The notes under the pieces were generated by a model that saw nothing but the letters and a program-made list of their open reading frames with translations, did no database searches and was not told the origin of the DNA. The translations under genes and the position numbers were made by a program. Below, piece by piece: positions 5,977 through 19,482 of a stretch of 35,776 nucleotides of DNA; the stretch's first letter is position 1; each line of letters begins with the position of its first letter. This stretch comes from a virus: the IMG/VR virus record IMGVR_UViG_3300032296_001219, positions 1 through 35,776 of that record. One strand, 5' to 3'.

Positions 5977-6219
5977 CTACTTTGCTGTGCGCGCAGAGCG
6001 CTTGAGCGCGTTGGTGGTGGGAGCCCCTTCAGCGCCGGGCTTTCGCATCTTCTCGCCGCTGCCGGCGGCGATGCGCTTCCGCTTAGCGTGGATGTTGCTG
6101 TACAAGCCGACCTTGCCGCCCGCGGCGTAGATGTCCGTGGGCTCCGGGCCATCGCGGCGAACGACCTCCTTCGGCCGCTTGCCGGGGGCGATAGCCCCCA
6201 TGCCACGAGCCGGCCTCAC
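5977..6219 (-). CDS. Small basic phage protein (80 aa)
   Basis: An 80-residue basic protein with GTG start (6219) behind GAGGGAAG; an in-frame ATG at 6201 has no ribosome site. The second half, LYSNIHAKRKRIAAGSGEKM, followed by RKPGAEGAPT, is a conserved phage signature known from short genes beside tail genes. The GTGA overlap with the preceding gene implies coupled translation. Function unknown. Confidence 0.6.
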   Translation of the reverse strand: MRPARGMGAIAPGKRPKEVVRRDGPEPTDIYAAGGKVGLYSNIHAKRKRIAAGSGEKMRKPGAEGAPTTNALKRSARTAK

Positions 6220-6473
6220 ACGAACTTCCCTCGGGTCTTGCCCTTGACTTCGCAGCCGCCGCCCTTGGCGTACTTGGCGGGTTTCTGCTCGCCCTTCTTG
6301 GCGGGCTTCTTCTCGGACTTTTTCATCATGAACGGGGGCAAAGGCTTCTTCATCTCAGGCTCCTCATGGGCACTCGGCCCGACAAATTTCTTCGCTACGC
6401 TCGGCGGCACATCCGTCTTGCCCGCCAACGAAGCATACATGAACCGCCGCTGTTTCTCGGATCTAACCGGCAC
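6216..6473 (-). CDS. Small Lys-rich phage protein (SEKQRRFMYA type)
   Basis: About 85 residues from GTG 6473. The start is chosen because the protein then begins MPVRSEKQRRFMYASLAGK, the usual beginning of this phage family; a longer frame upstream lies inside the preceding gene. Residues after VPPSVAKKFVGP become a Lys/Pro-rich tail. The gene overlaps its upstream neighbour by 11 bp. The family is common in virion modules but has no known function; the basic, disordered tail could bind nucleic acid. Confidence 0.55.
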   Translation of the reverse strand: MPVRSEKQRRFMYASLAGKTDVPPSVAKKFVGPSAHEEPEMKKPLPPFMMKKSEKKPAKKGEQKPAKYAKGGGCEVKGKTRGKFV

Positions 6474-6705
6474 GTCGCTCTCGCAGATTGTCCAACTTTT
6501 CCGACAGCGCGTCCAACCGCTTGAGCAGCTCATTCATGTCGTGTCGAAATTCCTGCCGCGTTATGTGATCGCGGGCAACTTCTTCTCGCGTCCTGTTAAG
6601 CAGCGCACTCAGTCGATCCAGCTCCTTAAACTTAGACGCCATGAAGAACGACACAACGGCTAACAGAACTGTGAGAATCGTGTTCCAAAGCAGTGTGTTG
6701 TCCAT
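6463..6705 (-). CDS. Membrane-anchored coiled-coil protein, possibly lysis-related
   Basis: An 80-residue protein: one N-terminal membrane helix (TILTVLLAVVSFFMASKF, about residues 9-26), followed by a long charged helix with heptad-like Leu spacing (LDRLSALLNR ... LLKRLDALSEKLDNLRER). This N-in/C-out single-span topology is seen in i-spanins, small holins and XhlA-like accessory proteins, so a lysis role is possible. No endolysin or second spanin gene is recognisable beside it, so the role remains open. Confidence 0.5.
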   Translation of the reverse strand: MDNTLLWNTILTVLLAVVSFFMASKFKELDRLSALLNRTREEVARDHITRQEFRHDMNELLKRLDALSEKLDNLRERRAG

Positions 6706-6706
6706 T

Positions 6707-6961
6707 TTAGCAATTCCACGCCCGTAGGCTTTTGTTGATGCGGCTGTTGGGGTCTTTAGCTGTCTTTTCCGAGGTCAGCTTTTTCTTCATACCCTTCATT
6801 CTGCTACAGAATGAATCCCTGCGGGGGCCACCTTCAGGCTGCGGCGCCTTCAGCCCTGGCTTACCGGGATTGGCGCGGTTGTAAGAGGCACGGCCTTTGG
6901 CGTTGAGTCCGCCCGACTCGGCCTTGCCTTCTTTACGTGTCCATGCAGGTGTCTTAGCCAC
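6707..6961 (-). CDS. Small conserved phage protein (DUF6321-like)
   Basis: An 84-residue, Gly/Lys-rich protein with GTG start at 6961. It begins MAKTPAWTRKEGKAESGGLN, continues AKGRASYN, GKPGLKAP, and has the late motif PRRDSFCSRMKGMK and C-terminal INKSLRAWNC. This series is characteristic of a small phage and cyanophage family that I recall as DUF6321; the label is from memory. Lies between the fibre-like gene and the coiled-coil membrane protein. Confidence 0.65.
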   Translation of the reverse strand: MAKTPAWTRKEGKAESGGLNAKGRASYNRANPGKPGLKAPQPEGGPRRDSFCSRMKGMKKKLTSEKTAKDPNSRINKSLRAWNC

Positions 6962-6987
6962 ACTCAGCCCCTGGCTATCTGTTCTGT

Positions 6988-9507
6988 TTATGCGTAGAAC
7001 AGCTCGCCAACAATATCGTTTGCGGTAACTGCGGTAGCGTCCGTATCAGCGGCGCCTGTCACCATGGTCAGGCCGATACCTGCTGTAAACGAGACGCCGC
7101 CCTCGGAGAAGAAAGACGCTGTGTTATTCGGCGGAATACCTATTGTTCGCACCACGCCAGTACCGGCAGTTGGTGCCGTGGCCTGGTTGTGCAGCTTTAC
7201 ATATCGCCATGAGGCAGTGGTATTCGCAAAATACCAGCCAAACACTTTGCCTGCTGCGTTCTTGACCAACGTAGCGTTAGTAGACCCCGCAGCCACGAAG
7301 TGCGTGGTCGTGGTAGCCAAACCCGCCGCAGTGGCGCGGTATTGGACACCAACATCGCCAACCAACGCCGTGCCAGCTACCAGGGCTGGCTGCGTGAACG
7401 TAGTCGTGACCGTGTTCTGAATTGATACCGGCATCGCTGACGCCGCGTCAGAAGCCGGGCGTGCGAGGGCCTCTACACGTAGCCGTTCGTAGTCAAAAAT
7501 ACGAACAAAGCTGACGCGCAGACAAGTCCGCTTGATGATCGCGCCGCCGCAGTTCGCGCTTCCGAAGTCGGCAGGGAGAACCCGCTGACCCGAAAACGGA
7601 AGAACCAGCGTCAAGACGGTAGTCGCTTGGTTAGCGATCTTCCACGGACCATCTACGCCGAGCGAAACACCCGTCAGGTCTGCCCGCATGCCGACCACGT
7701 TCACGAGATCACCGATAGCGCCAGCGGCCCATGTCGTGTTTCCGGTGATGACGAGCTGCCGCGTACCGTCTGCCAGTGTGGACAAAACCGCAGACTGCGC
7801 AACCACCGCGCTTGCGCCCAGCGCAGACATCAGGTTACCGCCCTGCACCTTGGCGACGTATCCGCCATAGCTGGTGACGGTGCCTGCCGCGCCGATCACA
7901 ATCGTGAACTCTGTCGGGCTCACTACACTAGCAACCGGCGTGGCGGTGGTGAGGTTCGGGAATTCCGTCGCACCTTGCGCACGGATACCGTACACCACTA
8001 CAATTTCGCCCGGCACGTATCCGTGCGGGCGGTCGGTCACGATGTTGGCGGTCGTTGTACCACTTTTGACGGCCGATACGATCTGCGCGTTTGGAACCGT
8101 CAATGAACGGTTGTTCGTGGCCCGGAAACGAAGCCGGTACTTTTCGCTCGGGTCGGGACAGACCTGCGTCCGCACAGCGCGGCTAGTCATCTGTGCGGTG
8201 GCATCGACGACCGAATCAGCCCATTGCGTGCGATCTGCTTGAATAAGCAGCCGGTACTCGTTAGTTGGGCTGAATGCGTACGTGTATGCTGCGTTTACGA
8301 GCTGTATACTAGCGGTAGTACCGACCGTAACAGAATTGTTGCCGACAATCGTACCGGAAGGCAGCGCGTCGCCCGCTTCACTGCGGATATACAGCGAGGC
8401 GTTTGTGACCGTGACGTTCTCAAAAATCTGCGACACGCCGTTACGGGCACGGCCTAGGCGCTGGCGGACGTATACAAAACCTAGCTGCCCTACGAGAGTA
8501 GTGTCGGCAAATGTAACCGCCGTAGTGCCTACTGTGGTTACCGTCGCGGTAAGATAAAACTGTCTCTGTGCTTGCGTAGTGCCTTGCTGCACATACACAT
8601 TAACCGCAAACAACGCACCCGCAACTACTGTCATTTCTGCAGTAGTGTCAAAATCAGTGGCGCGGGTCAGAATCCACGGCAGCCCTGCGTTACCAACCTG
8701 CGTCAGGACGTACACACCGTTGTTGGCGGGCGCTGCTTCGTTCTTCACGAGCACGCGCTGGTTAAGCAGGACAGTAACGCCGTCCTGCGCTGGGAAGGCG
8801 CCGTTTGTGTTGGCGGTGAGCGTAGCGCCTACACCGAGCGTCCCGTTGGCGTATGTGTTTGCCGGCAGTGCTGCGGTCGTTGCGGCCAGCACCGAGGTCG
8901 TGTAGGCGGACAGCGATGGGATAGTGCCACCAGGGCCTGCTGTAGCCGTGAATTGCGTGGGGCTCGGAACAGATGCGACAACAAGGGCCGGGTAGTTAAT
9001 GCGCGAATCCGCCAGCGCCCTAACGCCAATAGCCCTACCGACGGGGTACCCGTGCGGCAGCACGGTGTTTACTGTGAGTGTGGTTGTTGCTTGTGTGATG
9101 CTGTCAATTAGCAGCTCAGACGTATCTTCGATGAGGTCGCCGGCATCGACAACCTCCATGGAGAATTCTTGCCCAAGCGTGCGCTGGGACATAGAAAGCC
9201 CAACAGCCGCTTCAACCGGAAGCGTCAGTTTCTCAGTAGTGGTGATGTTGCTTTCAGTACCCGCACTCAACGGGTCTTTAGAGATTACCAAGTAGGACGC
9301 TGCCGCAGCGTTGCCGTCGGTAAAAATGAGATCGCCTGTGGCGTCATGCTCCCGCCAAACACCGCCGTTCAGCGGGTCATACGCTTCAAAAGCATCCCTA
9401 AATTTAGTAGTGATGTTTTGTGGAACGACATGCGCAGCCCCGTCTGTGGCACCCCAGCTAGACGCACGCCCGGTCTCGCTATCCGTCAACGGAGAAAAGC
9501 CGCCCAT
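6988..9507 (-). CDS. Large fibre/tail appendage-like structural protein (839 aa)
   Basis: The start at ATG 9507 is set by TAGGAG seven bases upstream; the frame is open further upstream, but that part overlaps the previous gene. The protein is rich in Ala, Thr and Val. Around residues 230-330 is the tail-fibre module AQDGVTVLLNQRVLVKNEAA, NNGVYVLTQVG, PWILTRATDFD, which is usual in phage fibres. Repeated segments of the form 'TANIVTDRPHGYVPGEIV' occur three times (near residues 160, 510 and 590 by eye). It is the largest virion gene in the window and the probable main tail-appendage protein. No catalytic motif seen. Confidence 0.65.
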   Translation of the reverse strand: MGGFSPLTDSETGRASSWGATDGAAHVVPQNITTKFRDAFEAYDPLNGGVWREHDATGDLIFTDGNAAAASYLVISKDPLSAGTESNITTTEKLTLPVEAAVGLSMSQRTLGQEFSMEVVDAGDLIEDTSELLIDSITQATTTLTVNTVLPHGYPVGRAIGVRALADSRINYPALVVASVPSPTQFTATAGPGGTIPSLSAYTTSVLAATTAALPANTYANGTLGVGATLTANTNGAFPAQDGVTVLLNQRVLVKNEAAPANNGVYVLTQVGNAGLPWILTRATDFDTTAEMTVVAGALFAVNVYVQQGTTQAQRQFYLTATVTTVGTTAVTFADTTLVGQLGFVYVRQRLGRARNGVSQIFENVTVTNASLYIRSEAGDALPSGTIVGNNSVTVGTTASIQLVNAAYTYAFSPTNEYRLLIQADRTQWADSVVDATAQMTSRAVRTQVCPDPSEKYRLRFRATNNRSLTVPNAQIVSAVKSGTTTANIVTDRPHGYVPGEIVVVYGIRAQGATEFPNLTTATPVASVVSPTEFTIVIGAAGTVTSYGGYVAKVQGGNLMSALGASAVVAQSAVLSTLADGTRQLVITGNTTWAAGAIGDLVNVVGMRADLTGVSLGVDGPWKIANQATTVLTLVLPFSGQRVLPADFGSANCGGAIIKRTCLRVSFVRIFDYERLRVEALARPASDAASAMPVSIQNTVTTTFTQPALVAGTALVGDVGVQYRATAAGLATTTTHFVAAGSTNATLVKNAAGKVFGWYFANTTASWRYVKLHNQATAPTAGTGVVRTIGIPPNNTASFFSEGGVSFTAGIGLTMVTGAADTDATAVTANDIVGELFYA

Positions 9508-9520
9508 GTCGTAACTCCTA

Positions 9521-10000
9521 TCAGACGCGGGCCGGGGCCTGCGAACCGTCTTCGTTGCGCTGCGCGTAGAGCACAGTGACCACCGCACGCCCCGCACCCG
9601 CCGCGACGCCCACGGCGTAACGCACGAAGATCGGCGTGTCCGCGGCATTAGACGTTTGCCAAGCAAGCTGCGTGGCCGCCGTGGCAGTGCCCGGGAAGCG
9701 CCCGCCGGCCGTGGTTGTCACGGCGGCCAACAGATCTGCACCGCCCAGGGTCGACCCCACAGAAACCGTCGAGGTGGATGAGCCGCCCGGGACCACAACC
9801 TGATCGACCCAGATGGCGACGATCTGCGAACCCCGCGGAAGCGTGCCAAGACGGAAGTCGACGTTGCCTACGCCGGCATTGACAACGCCCGTGTCAAGCG
9901 ACTGTACGAGGGCGACAAGCCCCGTGTTGCGGCCAGCGGCCAGCGGTGCGTCACGCAGCGTGCCTGAGCGGATCGGTCCCGAGAAGGTGGACGTGCCCAT
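9521..10000 (-). CDS. Hypothetical virion protein, probable head decoration or head fibre
   Basis: A 159-residue, Gly/Ala/Ser-rich protein starting at ATG 10000 behind GAGGAACTACC. It begins MGTSTFSGPIRSGTLR and continues with alternating hydrophobic strands (SQIVAIWVDQVVVPGG, IFVRYAVGVAAGAGRAVVTV). Such short beta-rich proteins directly after the major capsid gene are commonly head decoration or head-fibre proteins; that role is inferred from position only. It is separated from the capsid gene by a terminator, suggesting different expression level. Confidence 0.5.
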   Translation of the reverse strand: MGTSTFSGPIRSGTLRDAPLAAGRNTGLVALVQSLDTGVVNAGVGNVDFRLGTLPRGSQIVAIWVDQVVVPGGSSTSTVSVGSTLGGADLLAAVTTTAGGRFPGTATAATQLAWQTSNAADTPIFVRYAVGVAAGAGRAVVTVLYAQRNEDGSQAPARV

Positions 10001-13882: not shown

Positions 13883-16339
13883 TTAGTCCCCCTTCGGCTT
13901 GTCGGCCTTCTTGGCTGCGCGTTGCTCGGCCTGCTGGCGCATCTTCAGCCGGTGGGCCTGCTCTTTGTGGACGAGGTTCTGCTGCGCCGTGGCGCCCTTG
14001 ACCGCCAGCTCTTGCTGGGCGCGGATCGCCTGGAGGCGGGGGTCTTCGCCCTGCTTGCGCTGCGCGTCCAGCGCGAGGCGTGCCTGCTCAAGCTGCAGCT
14101 TGCCTTGGGCGATCTGGAAGTCCCGCAGGCTGTCGGCTTCCTTGCGCTTCAATTCCTCGGCCTTCAATTGAAGTTCTGCCTGCTGCATTTGCAAAGCCGG
14201 GTCTTGTGCCTGCTGCTGGGCCTGCTGCTGGGCCTGCTGCTGGGCGAACATCGCTTGGTTCTGCACCATGGTGCGCTGCGCTGCGGCGGCGATGAGCGGT
14301 GCGAGGGCCTTCTCGTCCTCGGGGGCGAGCGGGGCTTCGTTCTCGTCGTCCAGCGGAGGCAGCGGCACCCCCAGCGTCATCTCGATCTGAGCACGGTATG
14401 CGAACGCCGCGTGCTCGGCCATGTGTGCTTGTAGCGCGGCCATGAGCTGCTGCGCCATGGGGTTCTGTCCCAGCGTGGCGGCGATGTTCGGGTCTTGCAT
14501 GAACGCTTGGTGCGTCATCATGTGCGCTTGGTGGTCCTGGTACGCAAACGCCTTGACCGGCTTGCCGGTGAGGATGGACATGTTCTCCGTCACGGGGTCG
14601 CGCGGTTTCATGTCGGCGTCGACTGGCACGAGCTTGTCGGCCTGCTTGATTCCCAGCACCTCCAGCATCTGGCGGTGCAGCCTGGGGAGGGCATAGATCT
14701 GCGGAGCGCCCTGCGCAAGCTGCAGTGCTGCTTGGTACTGCATGATCCGCTGCGCCATCGTGGCTGCGTTCGGATCGCTGACGGGAATGACCTCGACGAC
14801 GTCGTAGTCGGCCTGCTTGACGCGGCGGTCGCCACCCTCGGGGGTGTACGGGTACTCCGCCGGCAGGAAGTCGCGGATGATGACCTTCAGGAGCTTGAAC
14901 TCCATCCGCAGGCTGGCGTGCACGCGGGCCTGGACGGCGGACATGGTCTTGAGCTGGCGCTCCAGGATCGCCAGCGTGGTGCCCACGGGGGCCTGCGCGC
15001 TCATGTCGCTGACCTTGAGGTCGGCGATGGCTGCCAGCCGACGGCCTTCCTCCGTGATGCGCTCCAGCAGGGCGGAAAGCACCTGACTGGGCTCCTTGTA
15101 CGGCAGCGGCATCAGATTGTCGCGCACGGTGCCGCTGGGGATGTCCACGTCGCGGAACTCGCCCGGTGCGATGGGCGTGTCGTCGCCCTTTATCCGTAGC
15201 CCACGGGCCTTCAGGCCGCCCGGCAGGTTGGCGAGCGTGCCGGCGTCCACAAGCTGGCGGATGATGCTTGTGCCTGCGCGTGCGTAGCCGCCGATGATGT
15301 GGATGAACCCCATGCCGTAAGCGCCGAAGCCGGGGATGTATGTGTACTGCACGAAGTGCTGCCGCTTGCGCCGCTGCGTGTCGTTCTCGTCCCAGTTACG
15401 CCGTACTGCCAGCACCTTCTGCGTGCCGCGCTCGACCGTCACCACGTATGGCAGGGCCACGTCATCCTCGTGCCCCGGCATGTCGCATTCGACGTGGATC
15501 TCCAGGAGCTGGTAGCGCTCGTCGTCGTTGAGGCTGTAGCCCTGCTCCTCGGCTTTCTTCTTCTCGATGTCCGAGAAGACACGCGTGGGCTCTCCGAGGT
15601 CAACGTCGCGGTAGAACCCCGACGCCTGCAGCCGCCGGATCTCGTTCTTGGTCTTGCGCATCACGTGTGTGACGCGCTCGGATGTGTAGATATCCTCTGC
15701 ACCGTAAGGGATGATGATGTCTTCGGCAGGCACGAACGGCGCCGCGGGCAGCCCCGTGTCCGGGTTAGGGTATATCTTCTTGAACGCCGCCCCCGCAAGC
15801 CCCAGGCTGAACAGCATCCGCTCGTGCTCCGAGCGGTATGACACCATGCGCTCGGTCAAAGTGAAGTTCATGTCGTCGCGCACGCGCTCGGCCGCCTCCT
15901 CGCGGAGCTTGTCGATGGCCCCCACGATCTGCGTCTTGACCGGCCCCTGAGCAGGGAACGTCTCGGTGATCATCTCCGACTGGAACCGGATGGCTGCTTC
16001 AGTCAGCAGCGGGGAGAACACGCCGCACGCGCCACTCCAGGGCTCTGTGCGCTCCTCATACTTCATCCCCAAGACCTCCAGGCCCTTGACGTACATCTCC
16101 ACCCAGTCCTTGCGGGAGTTGATGTCGCTGTCCACGAGTGTGACCATCTCGCCAGCCAGCGCCTGCAGCGCGTCTGCGTCGATGCTCTCCGCAAGGTTGG
16201 CATCGAACGCCAACGGTACTTCTTCGCTCGCTTCTTCGGGCTCTACCCCCTCCAGCTCAATCTCGATCTCGACAACGGGTTCGTCTGACAAAAGCTGCGG
16301 GTCAAAGGGGGTCAGTGCGGGAGCGAAGTTGGTAGCCAT
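13883..16339 (-). CDS. Portal protein
   Basis: An 818-residue protein. The acidic N-terminus is followed by SRKDWVEMYVKGLEVLGMKY, PWSGACGVFSPLL and a portal core with FSLGLAGAAFKKIYPNPDTG, YGAEDIYTSERVTHVMRKT, and FVQYTYIPGFGAYGMGFIHI. Last ~200 residues are a Gln/Ala-rich coiled coil (QQQAQQQAQQQAQDPALQ), then a Lys-rich end. Long portals with a C-terminal helical barrel occur in P22-like and related podoviruses. Position after the large terminase is canonical. Weak ribosome site (GAAAG) 13 bp after the terminase stop. Confidence 0.8.
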   Translation of the reverse strand: MATNFAPALTPFDPQLLSDEPVVEIEIELEGVEPEEASEEVPLAFDANLAESIDADALQALAGEMVTLVDSDINSRKDWVEMYVKGLEVLGMKYEERTEPWSGACGVFSPLLTEAAIRFQSEMITETFPAQGPVKTQIVGAIDKLREEAAERVRDDMNFTLTERMVSYRSEHERMLFSLGLAGAAFKKIYPNPDTGLPAAPFVPAEDIIIPYGAEDIYTSERVTHVMRKTKNEIRRLQASGFYRDVDLGEPTRVFSDIEKKKAEEQGYSLNDDERYQLLEIHVECDMPGHEDDVALPYVVTVERGTQKVLAVRRNWDENDTQRRKRQHFVQYTYIPGFGAYGMGFIHIIGGYARAGTSIIRQLVDAGTLANLPGGLKARGLRIKGDDTPIAPGEFRDVDIPSGTVRDNLMPLPYKEPSQVLSALLERITEEGRRLAAIADLKVSDMSAQAPVGTTLAILERQLKTMSAVQARVHASLRMEFKLLKVIIRDFLPAEYPYTPEGGDRRVKQADYDVVEVIPVSDPNAATMAQRIMQYQAALQLAQGAPQIYALPRLHRQMLEVLGIKQADKLVPVDADMKPRDPVTENMSILTGKPVKAFAYQDHQAHMMTHQAFMQDPNIAATLGQNPMAQQLMAALQAHMAEHAAFAYRAQIEMTLGVPLPPLDDENEAPLAPEDEKALAPLIAAAAQRTMVQNQAMFAQQQAQQQAQQQAQDPALQMQQAELQLKAEELKRKEADSLRDFQIAQGKLQLEQARLALDAQRKQGEDPRLQAIRAQQELAVKGATAQQNLVHKEQAHRLKMRQQAEQRAAKKADKPKGD

Positions 16340-16352
16340 GTGTGTCTTTCAG

Positions 16353-18830
16353 TCAGTAGTAAGCCGCACGCCTGTGCGAACGCCACTCTTTCGGTTCTTC
16401 GGGCTCGTCTGACGGTAGTCGAATAAACCCACCCTGTCGCATACGCATTAGCGCCATACTGCAGTTGTGCGCGAGCAGCGAGTTAGCGAAGAAACACTGC
16501 GCGTCATCCACGGCTATGTCGTACACGCGCCGCGTGGTGTGGGTGTTCCTTACGTAGCTTACCGGAACGGAACTTGCAGACTGCACTCGCGCAGGCCGCT
16601 CGACAGTAAAGGCTGCGGACGCTGTGCGCGATGTATGCGGTCCCGCACCAGTCACACTGCCGAGGAATCTCTGGAGGAGGGGCGGTCTTGCGCGCTGCAA
16701 GAGCGAGGGCGATGGACTTCTTGGCATTCTCGCGGTGCCAAGCACGCCCTTCCTCACTCCGGTGCCAGTTTTTTGTCTTGTCACGAATGGCCGCCAAGTG
16801 CAGCAAGTGCGCAGGCGCGCTACTGCGAGCACTACGGCTAGCAGCATGCTCTTCGGCGTGTTGCTCGGGAGTAATACAGGCAAGATTCTCGGGACGGTTA
16901 TCTGTAGTGTCCCCGTTGATGTGGTGTACGTGGCTTCCGGGCGGAATAGGCCCGTTGTGTGCCTGCCAAACAGCGCGGTGTAGGCTGCCTGTGCTGCACC
17001 TAAAATACCGCCGGTGCGCAGGATTTTTGCTGTTAGGGTAGCGGCGATATGTGCGGCCGTCGAAGACAACCGTTTCGACCTCAACGTGCGGGTTTTTTGC
17101 GAAGGGCACAGGGCGTCTCCAGCAGTGGCAATGGTCACATTGTCCAACACCGGAACAAGGCTGTCAACCCGTATCCATCCACGTTGCGTAGCCATGCGGT
17201 GGTCAGGGGTAGCAAACACGCGCGACTGCCCGACGACTAGCTCCCAGACCTCCCTCTCGCCCCGGTCCCATGCAGCCAACACGCGCCGCGGCCCCAACGG
17301 TGTCGCCACCATGTCCCCGACACGCACATCGCTGATCGGGCGCTCCGTACCGTCTGCCAGCAACACCAGAGTTTCCCCGACAAGGCAAGTGTCGACGTAA
17401 TCATCGTGCTCGCCGGCCGGGAACGCAGCGACTTCCTCGATCACTTCCCGCGCCCAACGCGTGTCGGGCGCCCAGACTCTACCGGATGCGAACATGTCTG
17501 CCACGGCGTTGAGGCGCACTCGCTTGTCATTGGACGTGCCTACCTTACCACGGGACGGGGAGAACTCCCCGATGGCGAGCCCCATCGCTCGCAGCTCCTG
17601 GATCAGCGGCGCTCCGGCAGCCTTCTTCTCGATCAGACACGCGTCCGGCTCCCACTCTTTGTAGTACTCCAGGGCGCGCTTCTTCAAGTCGGGGAATGTC
17701 CAGCGGCCCTTGATTGCATCGAGCAGGATGATGTGCGCGTTGTCGTTGTCTTCCTCGTTAAACCACACGCCCCACACCGTGCATGCGCTGTAATCGCTGG
17801 CAGTCTTAGTCTCGTGTGCCGTGTCCCACGACTGGATGATGTACTCGCACTTCGGGGGGTCTTCCGGCTCCCAGATCTTCCACAGGTCACGCTTAATGAC
17901 AGCCGCGACCTCCGAAGTCGGGTTCTGCATGTACTGCGCCTGCCAGAACCGCGGGTCCATGCCTGCGCGCTTAGCTTGAAGCTGCTCCAACGGCCACTGC
18001 TGGGGCCAAAGACTCTTCTCTTCGGGCGTGTTCTCGTGCAAGATGGCCGGAAGCTCGACGATTTCCCACTTATCCGCGTCCGGGTTGCGAATCTGGTGTT
18101 TAATCAGCATGCCTGTTAAATCCAGCTCAGACCACCTAGTCATTACGACTATTATAGCCCCTCCCGGCATCAGGCGCTGCAGGGGGCCTGACTGAAACCA
18201 CGTCCAAGCGGCATCAAAAGGCGTTCTAGTGCCGGATTTCAGGTCTTGTTCGGAGTGCGGATCGTCAATAATGAACAGATCCGCGCCGCGCCCTGCGATG
18301 CTACCGCCGACACCGACGGCGTAATACTGCCCTCCGGCACTTGTTGACCATTTTCCGGCTGCTTTTTGGTCGTCAGCAACGATGGTTTTAGGAAAAATGT
18401 CGTTGTACGTGGCGTCGGCTGCAAGATTCTTGATCCTCCGTCCAAAATCCTCAGAAAGCGACGCGGTGTGCGTGCCCATGATGACCTTTTTCTCGGGGAA
18501 ACGGCCCAAAAAGTACGCCGGAAACAGGTAGGAACTAAACTCGCTTTTACCCATACGGGGGGCAATGTTGATAATCACCCTCTTTTTCTCGCCGCTTATT
18601 ACAGCGTCGAAGATTCTCGCTAGTTGGCGGTGGTGGGGGCCTTCTTTGAATCCTGGGTAGACAGCATGGGCGAAGCCGAGCGCGCTTGTACGGGCGCTTT
18701 GAATGCGCAAGCGCTGTTCTTTCTCTTCTAGCAGATCGCACAGGTCCATCTTCTCTTTAAGAGACATGGTCGGCAGCGCGGCTTGGATCGCCGCGGCCTC
18801 GCTGTGCGTGAGGAACTCAGGCAGCTTCAT
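16353..18830 (-). CDS. terL: Terminase large subunit precursor with intein
   Basis: An 825-codon precursor; removal of a 308-residue intein would leave a 517-residue enzyme, a normal size. ATPase: PRMGKS Walker A (91-96) and LFIIDDP Walker B (185-191). Nuclease: SWDTA with D336 as first acidic residue and HDDYVDT (475-481) with the last acidic pair. The intein lies exactly after T481 and before C790, adjacent to the catalytic Asp, so packaging would depend on splicing. C-extein is 36 residues (CSMALMRMRQGG...). The gene overlaps the small terminase by 14 bp. It pumps DNA into proheads and cuts concatemers. Confidence 0.9.
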   Translation of the reverse strand: MKLPEFLTHSEAAAIQAALPTMSLKEKMDLCDLLEEKEQRLRIQSARTSALGFAHAVYPGFKEGPHHRQLARIFDAVISGEKKRVIINIAPRMGKSEFSSYLFPAYFLGRFPEKKVIMGTHTASLSEDFGRRIKNLAADATYNDIFPKTIVADDQKAAGKWSTSAGGQYYAVGVGGSIAGRGADLFIIDDPHSEQDLKSGTRTPFDAAWTWFQSGPLQRLMPGGAIIVVMTRWSELDLTGMLIKHQIRNPDADKWEIVELPAILHENTPEEKSLWPQQWPLEQLQAKRAGMDPRFWQAQYMQNPTSEVAAVIKRDLWKIWEPEDPPKCEYIIQSWDTAHETKTASDYSACTVWGVWFNEEDNDNAHIILLDAIKGRWTFPDLKKRALEYYKEWEPDACLIEKKAAGAPLIQELRAMGLAIGEFSPSRGKVGTSNDKRVRLNAVADMFASGRVWAPDTRWAREVIEEVAAFPAGEHDDYVDTCLVGETLVLLADGTERPISDVRVGDMVATPLGPRRVLAAWDRGEREVWELVVGQSRVFATPDHRMATQRGWIRVDSLVPVLDNVTIATAGDALCPSQKTRTLRSKRLSSTAAHIAATLTAKILRTGGILGAAQAAYTALFGRHTTGLFRPEATYTTSTGTLQITVPRILPVLLPSNTPKSMLLAVVLAVARLRTCCTWRPFVTRQKTGTGVRKGVLGTARMPRSPSPSLLQRARPPLLQRFLGSVTGAGPHTSRTASAAFTVERPARVQSASSVPVSYVRNTHTTRRVYDIAVDDAQCFFANSLLAHNCSMALMRMRQGGFIRLPSDEPEEPKEWRSHRRAAYY
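16464..17387 (-). mobile_element. Intein within terminase large subunit (308 aa)
   Basis: Starts with C482 in CLVGETLVLLADG (block A). Block B is FATPDHRMAT, with the TxxH-type histidine. The C-terminus carries block F (VYDIAVDDAQCFFAN) and block G (LLAHN) followed by Cys+1, all residues needed for standard splicing. Blocks A-B and F-G are in the terminase frame. The roughly 200 residues in between have no resemblance to a homing endonuclease in this frame; instead an HNH gene lies there in another frame. Insertion next to the nuclease Asp is a classic intein site. Splicing is predicted, not shown. Confidence 0.9.
16504..17109 (-). CDS. HNH homing endonuclease overprinted in the intein
   Basis: A 201-residue protein on the same strand, in a different frame from the surrounding terminase/intein. 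Start GTG 17109 has GGAGA six bases upstream. It carries VHHINGDTTDNRPENL (residues 61-76) with HH and N of the HNH motif, then PEQHAEEHA. An N-terminal DGRTYRRYPNSKNPAHRRYF fits the HNH_3/AP2-like style of phage homing enzymes. C-terminal CDWCGTAY plus LYCRAAC is a likely zinc knuckle. It ends 40 bp before the end of the intein, so its last codons overlap block F coding sequence. It probably cuts intein-free terminase alleles to spread the intein. Confidence 0.85.
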   Translation of the reverse strand: MPFAKNPHVEVETVVFDGRTYRRYPNSKNPAHRRYFRCSTGSLHRAVWQAHNGPIPPGSHVHHINGDTTDNRPENLACITPEQHAEEHAASRSARSSAPAHLLHLAAIRDKTKNWHRSEEGRAWHRENAKKSIALALAARKTAPPPEIPRQCDWCGTAYIAHSVRSLYCRAACASAVCKFRSGKLRKEHPHHAARVRHSRG

Positions 18831-19482
18831 CGCTGGCTGGGGTTGGAGTCACGTCCACGACGTCGGTGACGTCCGTGATCTGCATGAAGCGCGAGAGCTT
18901 CTCTTTAATCTTGGAGTCCAGCTCCGCGTCGCTGACCGTTGTCTTCTTGATCTCCACGCGGTCGGTGAAGAGCGCCACCTCAGTGACCTTGCCCAGCAGT
19001 TCCAGTGCGCGCAGTCGGATGCGGGCGTCGGTGTGTTTGGTCTCTTCGATGATCTGGCTGACGGCGTAGCCGCGGATCTCTTTGGCCTGCTCTACGAACT
19101 CCCAGTCGTAGGCGGTCAGCATCCCCGTCAGGTGCCGGACTGCTTCTGGTGTCTTCAGTGCCAGCAGCGCAGCGCGCTGCGTGATCGGGGTATCTTGCTT
19201 GACGAGCGAACTGAACGCGGCTTGCGCGGTGCTTGCCGCGGCTAGGCGCTCTGCTTCTCCAGGAGCTGGCGCCCCCAACGCCTGCAGCCAGTCGGCTGTG
19301 TCTGACTGAGCGTCCAACAATGTCTGCGGCGGCACCTCGTTTACAGGCGCGCCTGAGTCGGCCGCATCACCGACCGGGGGCTCGTAATCAAGAAGGTGCT
19401 CTAGCATGTTGTCGCAGGGCTTGTGCCCGAGGTTGCGGCAGTGTAAAGTAGCTCCGGCCGCTGTGCAAGCAGGGGCCTTCAT
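18817..19482 (-). CDS. terS: Terminase small subunit-like protein
   Basis: A 221-residue protein with ATG 19482 behind GAAGGAG. The N-terminal ~50 residues hold Cys/His pairs (CTAAGATLHCRNLGHKPC), a possible zinc site. The central to C-terminal part is helical with AEFVEQAK-like helices and ARIRLRALELLGKVTEVALF, then TDRVEIKKTTVSDAELDSKI, a signature of phage small terminases (DNA-recognition oligomer). It is the first gene of the leftward late operon, right upstream of the large subunit. Acidic C-terminus ends SDEAA. Confidence 0.7.
   Translation of the reverse strand: MKAPACTAAGATLHCRNLGHKPCDNMLEHLLDYEPPVGDAADSGAPVNEVPPQTLLDAQSDTADWLQALGAPAPGEAERLAAASTAQAAFSSLVKQDTPITQRAALLALKTPEAVRHLTGMLTAYDWEFVEQAKEIRGYAVSQIIEETKHTDARIRLRALELLGKVTEVALFTDRVEIKKTTVSDAELDSKIKEKLSRFMQITDVTDVVDVTPTPASDEAA

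Follow-up and report, generated by a model that had tools for sequence, protein, structure and literature searches.

An HNH endonuclease gene nested out of frame within a terminase intein, and its relatives in phages

The textbook intein is a splicing domain fused to a homing endonuclease, and a familiar variant is the split intein, in which a free-standing endonuclease gene lies between the two halves of the element. The present work deals with an arrangement found in a stretch of viral DNA of 35,776 nucleotides (IMG/VR record IMGVR_UViG_3300032296_001219, positions 1 to 35,776; the whole of this stretch is called the window), where a terminase gene (TerL) contains an intein whose middle part is overprinted, on the same strand, by the gene of an HNH endonuclease. 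As in split inteins, the endonuclease is a gene of its own inside the intein region; split inteins, however, break the host gene in two, whereas the host frame of the window is unbroken, a single open reading frame (ORF) of 825 codons with no stop and restart.

Among described systems, the TerL of a Brucellaphage was remarked in 2015 to carry an out-of-frame HNH, putatively encoded by an intein (Virol J, PMC4422536). The likeness to the window, an HNH out of frame inside TerL, is one of description only, and that report differs in consisting of one remark, which comes with no test of the frame, no analysis of the intein and no survey of relatives. The ShiLan domain and the Pacc40 insert, out-of-frame HNH sequences in a DNA methylase (Genes 2025, PMC11855218), share with the family of the window both this kind of insert and a disjunct distribution. 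The host there is a methylase, and the HNH is surrounded by no splicing domain that could be found, so that the insert is not an intein, whereas the window has a Hint domain; ShiLan also has no detectable ribosome-binding site, and a leaderless start was proposed (PMC11855218). The dCTP deaminase of cyanophage CL131 contains an HNH_3 intein, the excision of which was demonstrated in Escherichia coli (PMC6293099); like the window it combines Hint and HNH_3 in a phage intein, but its HNH is reported to lie within the reading frame of the host protein. In open-licence papers we found no account of the family described below, of its fixed frame or of its second endonuclease, and earlier ones may exist.

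We propose that the window harbours a mobile TerL mini-intein whose homing endonuclease is a separately translated, overprinted gene rather than a fused domain, a reading to which we assign a probability of roughly 0.88. It draws on the layout of the locus and its spread, on selection in the HNH frame, on start signals and on predicted folds, all of which are observed. The TerL ORF (18830-16353, minus strand, as are all the features of the window given here) is open along its whole length and codes for 825 residues. Its N-extein (17388..18830, 481 codons) ends ...HDDYVDT at the nuclease active-site motif and has terminase matches in Pfam and PHROGs; its C-extein (16353..16463, 36 codons and the stop) starts CSMALMRMRQ and could be aligned with intein-less TerLs. 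The flanks match Terminase_6N and Terminase_6C above the Pfam cut-off. Between them the intein (16464..17387) runs for 308 codons from C1 to N308, followed by a cysteine at +1. It matches Vint and Intein_splicing, both below Pfam's curated cut-offs, and NCBIfam intein_Cterm at residues 288-308, above its cut-off. Blocks A, B, F and G are all complete, and the residues of splicing are present (C1, T60PDH63, H307 and N308, and the +1 cysteine), C1 and T60-x-x-H63 being kept in 30 relatives. In the AlphaFold model of the intein, residues 1-90 and 271-308 have block means of 84-98 in predicted local distance difference test (pLDDT) score. The N-terminal splicing domain, with blocks A and B (residues 1-90, 17118..17387), spans 84-98, and the C-terminal one, with blocks F and G, matched by intein_Cterm and ending ...RVYDIAVDDAQCFFANSLLAHN (16464..16577), 91-98. 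These two ends form a Hint fold, the best PDB matches of which are the Ssp DnaB, Npu DnaB and Mtu RecA mini-inteins, with a target-normalized TM-score of up to 0.82 against solved mini-inteins. The intervening residues 91-266 (16590..17117) are predicted to be disordered in the intein frame, with pLDDT below 50 nearly throughout.

It is over this middle that the second gene lies (16504..17109). It starts with GTG, codes for 201 residues and is in frame +2 relative to the intein, from intein codon 93 to a stop at codon 295, inside block F. A Shine-Dalgarno-like GGAGA with a six-base spacer stands ahead of the GTG (17110..17120). The product matches HNH_3 (PF13392) with an E-value of 8.5e-19 and 67.4 bits, for a cut-off of 24.8, and its AlphaFold2 model has a mean pLDDT of 94; ten positions (H62, H63, N71, N75, H84, H88, C152, C155, C169 and C173) are invariant in 44 sequences. 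Where the 3' end of the gene covers the C-terminal splicing domain (16504..16577, the strand from residue 271 and block F), the DNA has two functions. One could imagine instead that the insert is an intron at the level of RNA, with an HNH gene inside it and an open frame that is incidental, as phage group I introns commonly hold such genes. A search of Rfam up to E=1, however, was without a match, and both the complete blocks with their Hint fold and a frame free of stops across the family leave this a vanishingly small chance. The initial annotation, made from the letters of the window, had recognized the open intein frame with its four blocks, the HNH gene in another frame with its own GGAGA-n6-GTG, and the overlap of its 3' end with block F, and all three held when examined by motifs, profiles and models. 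It had further supposed some 200 codons readable in both frames; this stood in so far as there are no stops, but not in the sense of two folded products, the intein-frame middle being predicted as disordered.

Searches with the single intein or HNH sequence matched nothing beyond an identical contig, and the family was gathered by searching with profiles of both the HNH and the intein; relatives also came from scanning for a pattern across the insertion junction, whatever the insert contained. In every classified placement of an HNH-bearing intein the HNH is at +2, never in frame, so that the window and each nested relative depart from a fused endonuclease by the same two nucleotides. The figures that are free of selection are the following: the host frame is stop-free over the matched part in 118 of 124 distinct HNH genes, for one of 124 in the third frame, and in a search by HNH similarity only it is open at 65 of the 68 distinct loci, for none of 68 in the third frame. 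Once free-standing genes are removed, and members are chosen for their open host frame, there remain 115 distinct nested HNH genes in one shared relative frame (95, 89, 73 and 56 clusters at 90, 80, 70 and 60% identity), with no stop in the intein frame and about 14 on average in the third. The layout is thus real and long-lived, and common to dozens of diverged phages. As judged from junction sequences, the host is TerL in all cases, with insertion at HDDxVD[ATS]|C (the window type), HDDx|C, a DH|C.DA.RY-like site or a Walker-B-like site, ...FHGGW|C...CDELAAW. Some TerLs contain two inteins with a nested HNH in each; in L241, L250, L115, L132 and L227 the second intein is at the Walker-B-like site and has its nested out-of-frame HNH too. 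A profile search of genome contigs gave six HNH loci, of which L270 (a Rhodobacteraceae metagenome-assembled genome) and L271 are clearly nested. In all of the 105 members for which it was measured, the HNH stop falls within the intein, and its distance from the intein end is nearly always 31-64 nt; only this last part must serve two folded proteins.

To ask how much of this chance could produce, the codons of each HNH were replaced by synonymous ones sampled from the TerL that holds it. This null gives a mean of 3.2 host-frame stops per gene, and an open host frame in 6.8 of 89 clusters, for 89 observed; the joint log10 P of about -151 overstates the case, as its 89 clusters were picked as open. 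For L090, at 43% GC, the P-value of the open frame is 0.0005. Of 125 control windows of 195 codons from TerL exteins, none lacked stops in the corresponding relative frame, and the mean was 7.8 stops. Eight free-standing HNH relatives have 1-12 stops each in that frame over the full gene; two of them, L129 and L131, closely related to the nested copies, have stops in the very frame that these keep open, and the HNH of L129 (2501-3064, plus strand) is directly behind an intein-less TerL. The layout exceeds chance for the family, not for the window alone.

Diverged pairs make overprinting testable, as one can ask of them which frame yields, how stop codons are purged and why a single frame relation is kept. 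Over 30 independent pairs, mean identity is 0.83 for the HNH and 0.66 for the intein frame, the HNH being higher in 28 of the 30. Changes silent in the HNH occur at 2.2-3.7 times the neutral expectation and those that alter it at 0.64-0.76 times; the counts of these classes of change yield an omega-like ratio for the HNH of about 0.31, and the intein frame is under weak constraint only. Purifying selection acts on the HNH frame. The divergence of the HNH and that of the N-terminal part of the intein are correlated (Mantel r=0.61).

The start of the gene tells whether the endonuclease could be made by itself. A Shine-Dalgarno match of at least 4 nt precedes 65 of 85 HNH starts (76%), against 20% of control start codons, and the position of the start is nearly invariant. 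These two features speak against another origin of the endonuclease, namely a fusion of the N-terminal part of the intein with the HNH through programmed -1 frameshifting rather than from a start of its own. The HNH does lie in the -1 frame, and in the window the HNH frame is open for 18 codons ahead of the GTG. Yet 41 of 85 members have a stop in that frame no more than 15 nt before the start, with almost no room for a shift, and we therefore regard such a fusion as quite unlikely.

Several points weigh against an overprinted gene translated on its own. About one quarter of the HNH starts are without a 4-base Shine-Dalgarno match. The best PDB match of the HNH model, I-HmuI, is weak (E 0.17, probability 0.93), and a PDB sequence search with the HNH profile gave no match. 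Splicing, internal translation of the HNH, cleavage of the empty site and homing are steps that we infer. Finally, at 60% GC, the open frame of the window has P=0.16 by chance under the same synonymous recoding, and because of this the window is unconvincing by itself: the initial annotation had judged overprinting from it, a judgement which the family vindicates and the window does not. The same figure lends some colour to the idea of an artefact or of decay, an in-frame HNH domain having been shifted either through errors of sequencing or through a pair of compensating indels. Opposed to this are a second contig (IMGVR 3300033571_012259), identical to the window over 5452 bp, though its independence from it is not known; the invariant HNH residues; and the 115 distinct genes in one frame, three deposited phage genomes among them. 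At the level of the family this shared frame refutes the explanation, which we hold to be very improbable overall. The initial annotation had itself raised the matter of a frameshift error, here unlikely since no indel separates the two identical contigs. It had also pointed to related inteins with an in-frame HNH, which were looked for without one being met among the classified placements, to the same layout in related terminases, since recovered in over a hundred genes, and to a comparison of selection in the two frames, which designated the HNH frame as the constrained one.

The mobility of the element is suggested by the alleles of its site. The intein is placed in frame within the conserved host motif HDDxVD[ATS]|C, for which intein-less alleles are known: the TerLs L009-L011, 79-83% identical, align end to end with the window extein (residues 1-517). 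The same TerL site is occupied by three other intein types, 304-334 residues long (L102/L090; the L092/L109 group; L098), each with an HNH ORF at +2. At this site too, L089 has a 431-residue intein with a LAGLIDADG endonuclease which, in contrast to the window, is fused in frame; its TerL, an ORF of 1770 codons (L089:3187-8496, plus strand), contains several in-frame LAGLIDADG inteins. A mini-intein of 125 residues without HNH ORF is found there in L111 (reverse complement 717-1091). It looks like an in-frame loss of the HNH, and as MAFFT misaligned it across the deletion the end points are imprecise. This patchy presence is consistent with homing. It also bears on the idea that the nested HNH works with the terminase in packaging, kept for that function rather than for homing. 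HNH proteins are coded beside TerL in many phages, the nested hosts seen are all TerL, and the free-standing relatives sit beside terminase genes; but close TerLs are without the element, an HNH-less intein exists, Endonuclease_7 can occupy the same place, and such gains and losses are what a mobile element would show. We consider a packaging role unlikely.

The mobile intein with its nested gene may be pictured as follows. In the TerL frame, the two Hint halves would be joined by a disordered linker of about 180 residues, and the intein is predicted, from its modelled fold and the catalytic residues seen, to excise itself at the nuclease motif HDDYVDT|C. The DNA of the linker, read two bases out of frame, encodes the 201-residue HNH_3 protein with its zinc-binding cysteines, probably made by internal initiation on the TerL transcript from the Shine-Dalgarno site and GTG. 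This protein would cleave TerL alleles that have no intein, at the insertion site or close to it, and repair would copy the whole element. Since the middle is disordered in the intein frame, the main demand there would be the absence of stop codons over most of the HNH gene. That the host frame is always HNH+1 has a likely reason, arrived at by reasoning alone: stops in this frame would arise only from NTA codons before A or G, or from NTG codons before A, and would mostly be avoidable synonymously, those of the other frame being harder to avoid. We would then have a selfish element carrying two proteins in two frames of one DNA stretch, where the endonuclease could be made without splicing, at a level set by its own start.

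HNH_3 is not the only endonuclease nested in this manner. An Endonuclease_7 ORF in the same frame relation is present in the TerL intein of Gordonia phage Fosterous (E=5e-21) and in the first intein of L098 (E=1.6e-19), with recoding P-values for the open frame of 0.14 and 0.002, respectively. The L098 TerL (6179-9646, minus strand, 1156 residues) has two inteins with unrelated nested endonucleases, Endonuclease_7 and HNH_3. The Fosterous gene (L284:1386-1847, plus strand) lies where the record annotates the terminase only, and 15 other Gordonia phage records match in the same TerL intein region. We think it probable that TerL inteins include a large and old class in which the endonuclease is overprinted in one locked frame relation, and that at least two unrelated families (HNH_3 and Endonuclease_7) entered it independently; out-of-frame nesting would then be a recurrent alternative to domain fusion, with splicing and cleavage translated separately and able to evolve separately.

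There is here a gap of annotation, as the three deposited phages examined with a nested HNH list only the terminase gene at that place, and those TerL inteins of about 300 codons whose middle is unrecognized would seem worth reading again in the second frame. The phages with such an unannotated HNH_3 inside TerL are L276 (Tetrasphaera TJE1), L277 (Acinetobacter Highwayman) and L279 (Rhodobacteraceae LS06-2018-MD07). In the window itself, TerL is preceded by an unclassified gene, possibly that of the small terminase (18817-19482, minus strand), and followed by the portal protein gene (13883-16339, minus strand).
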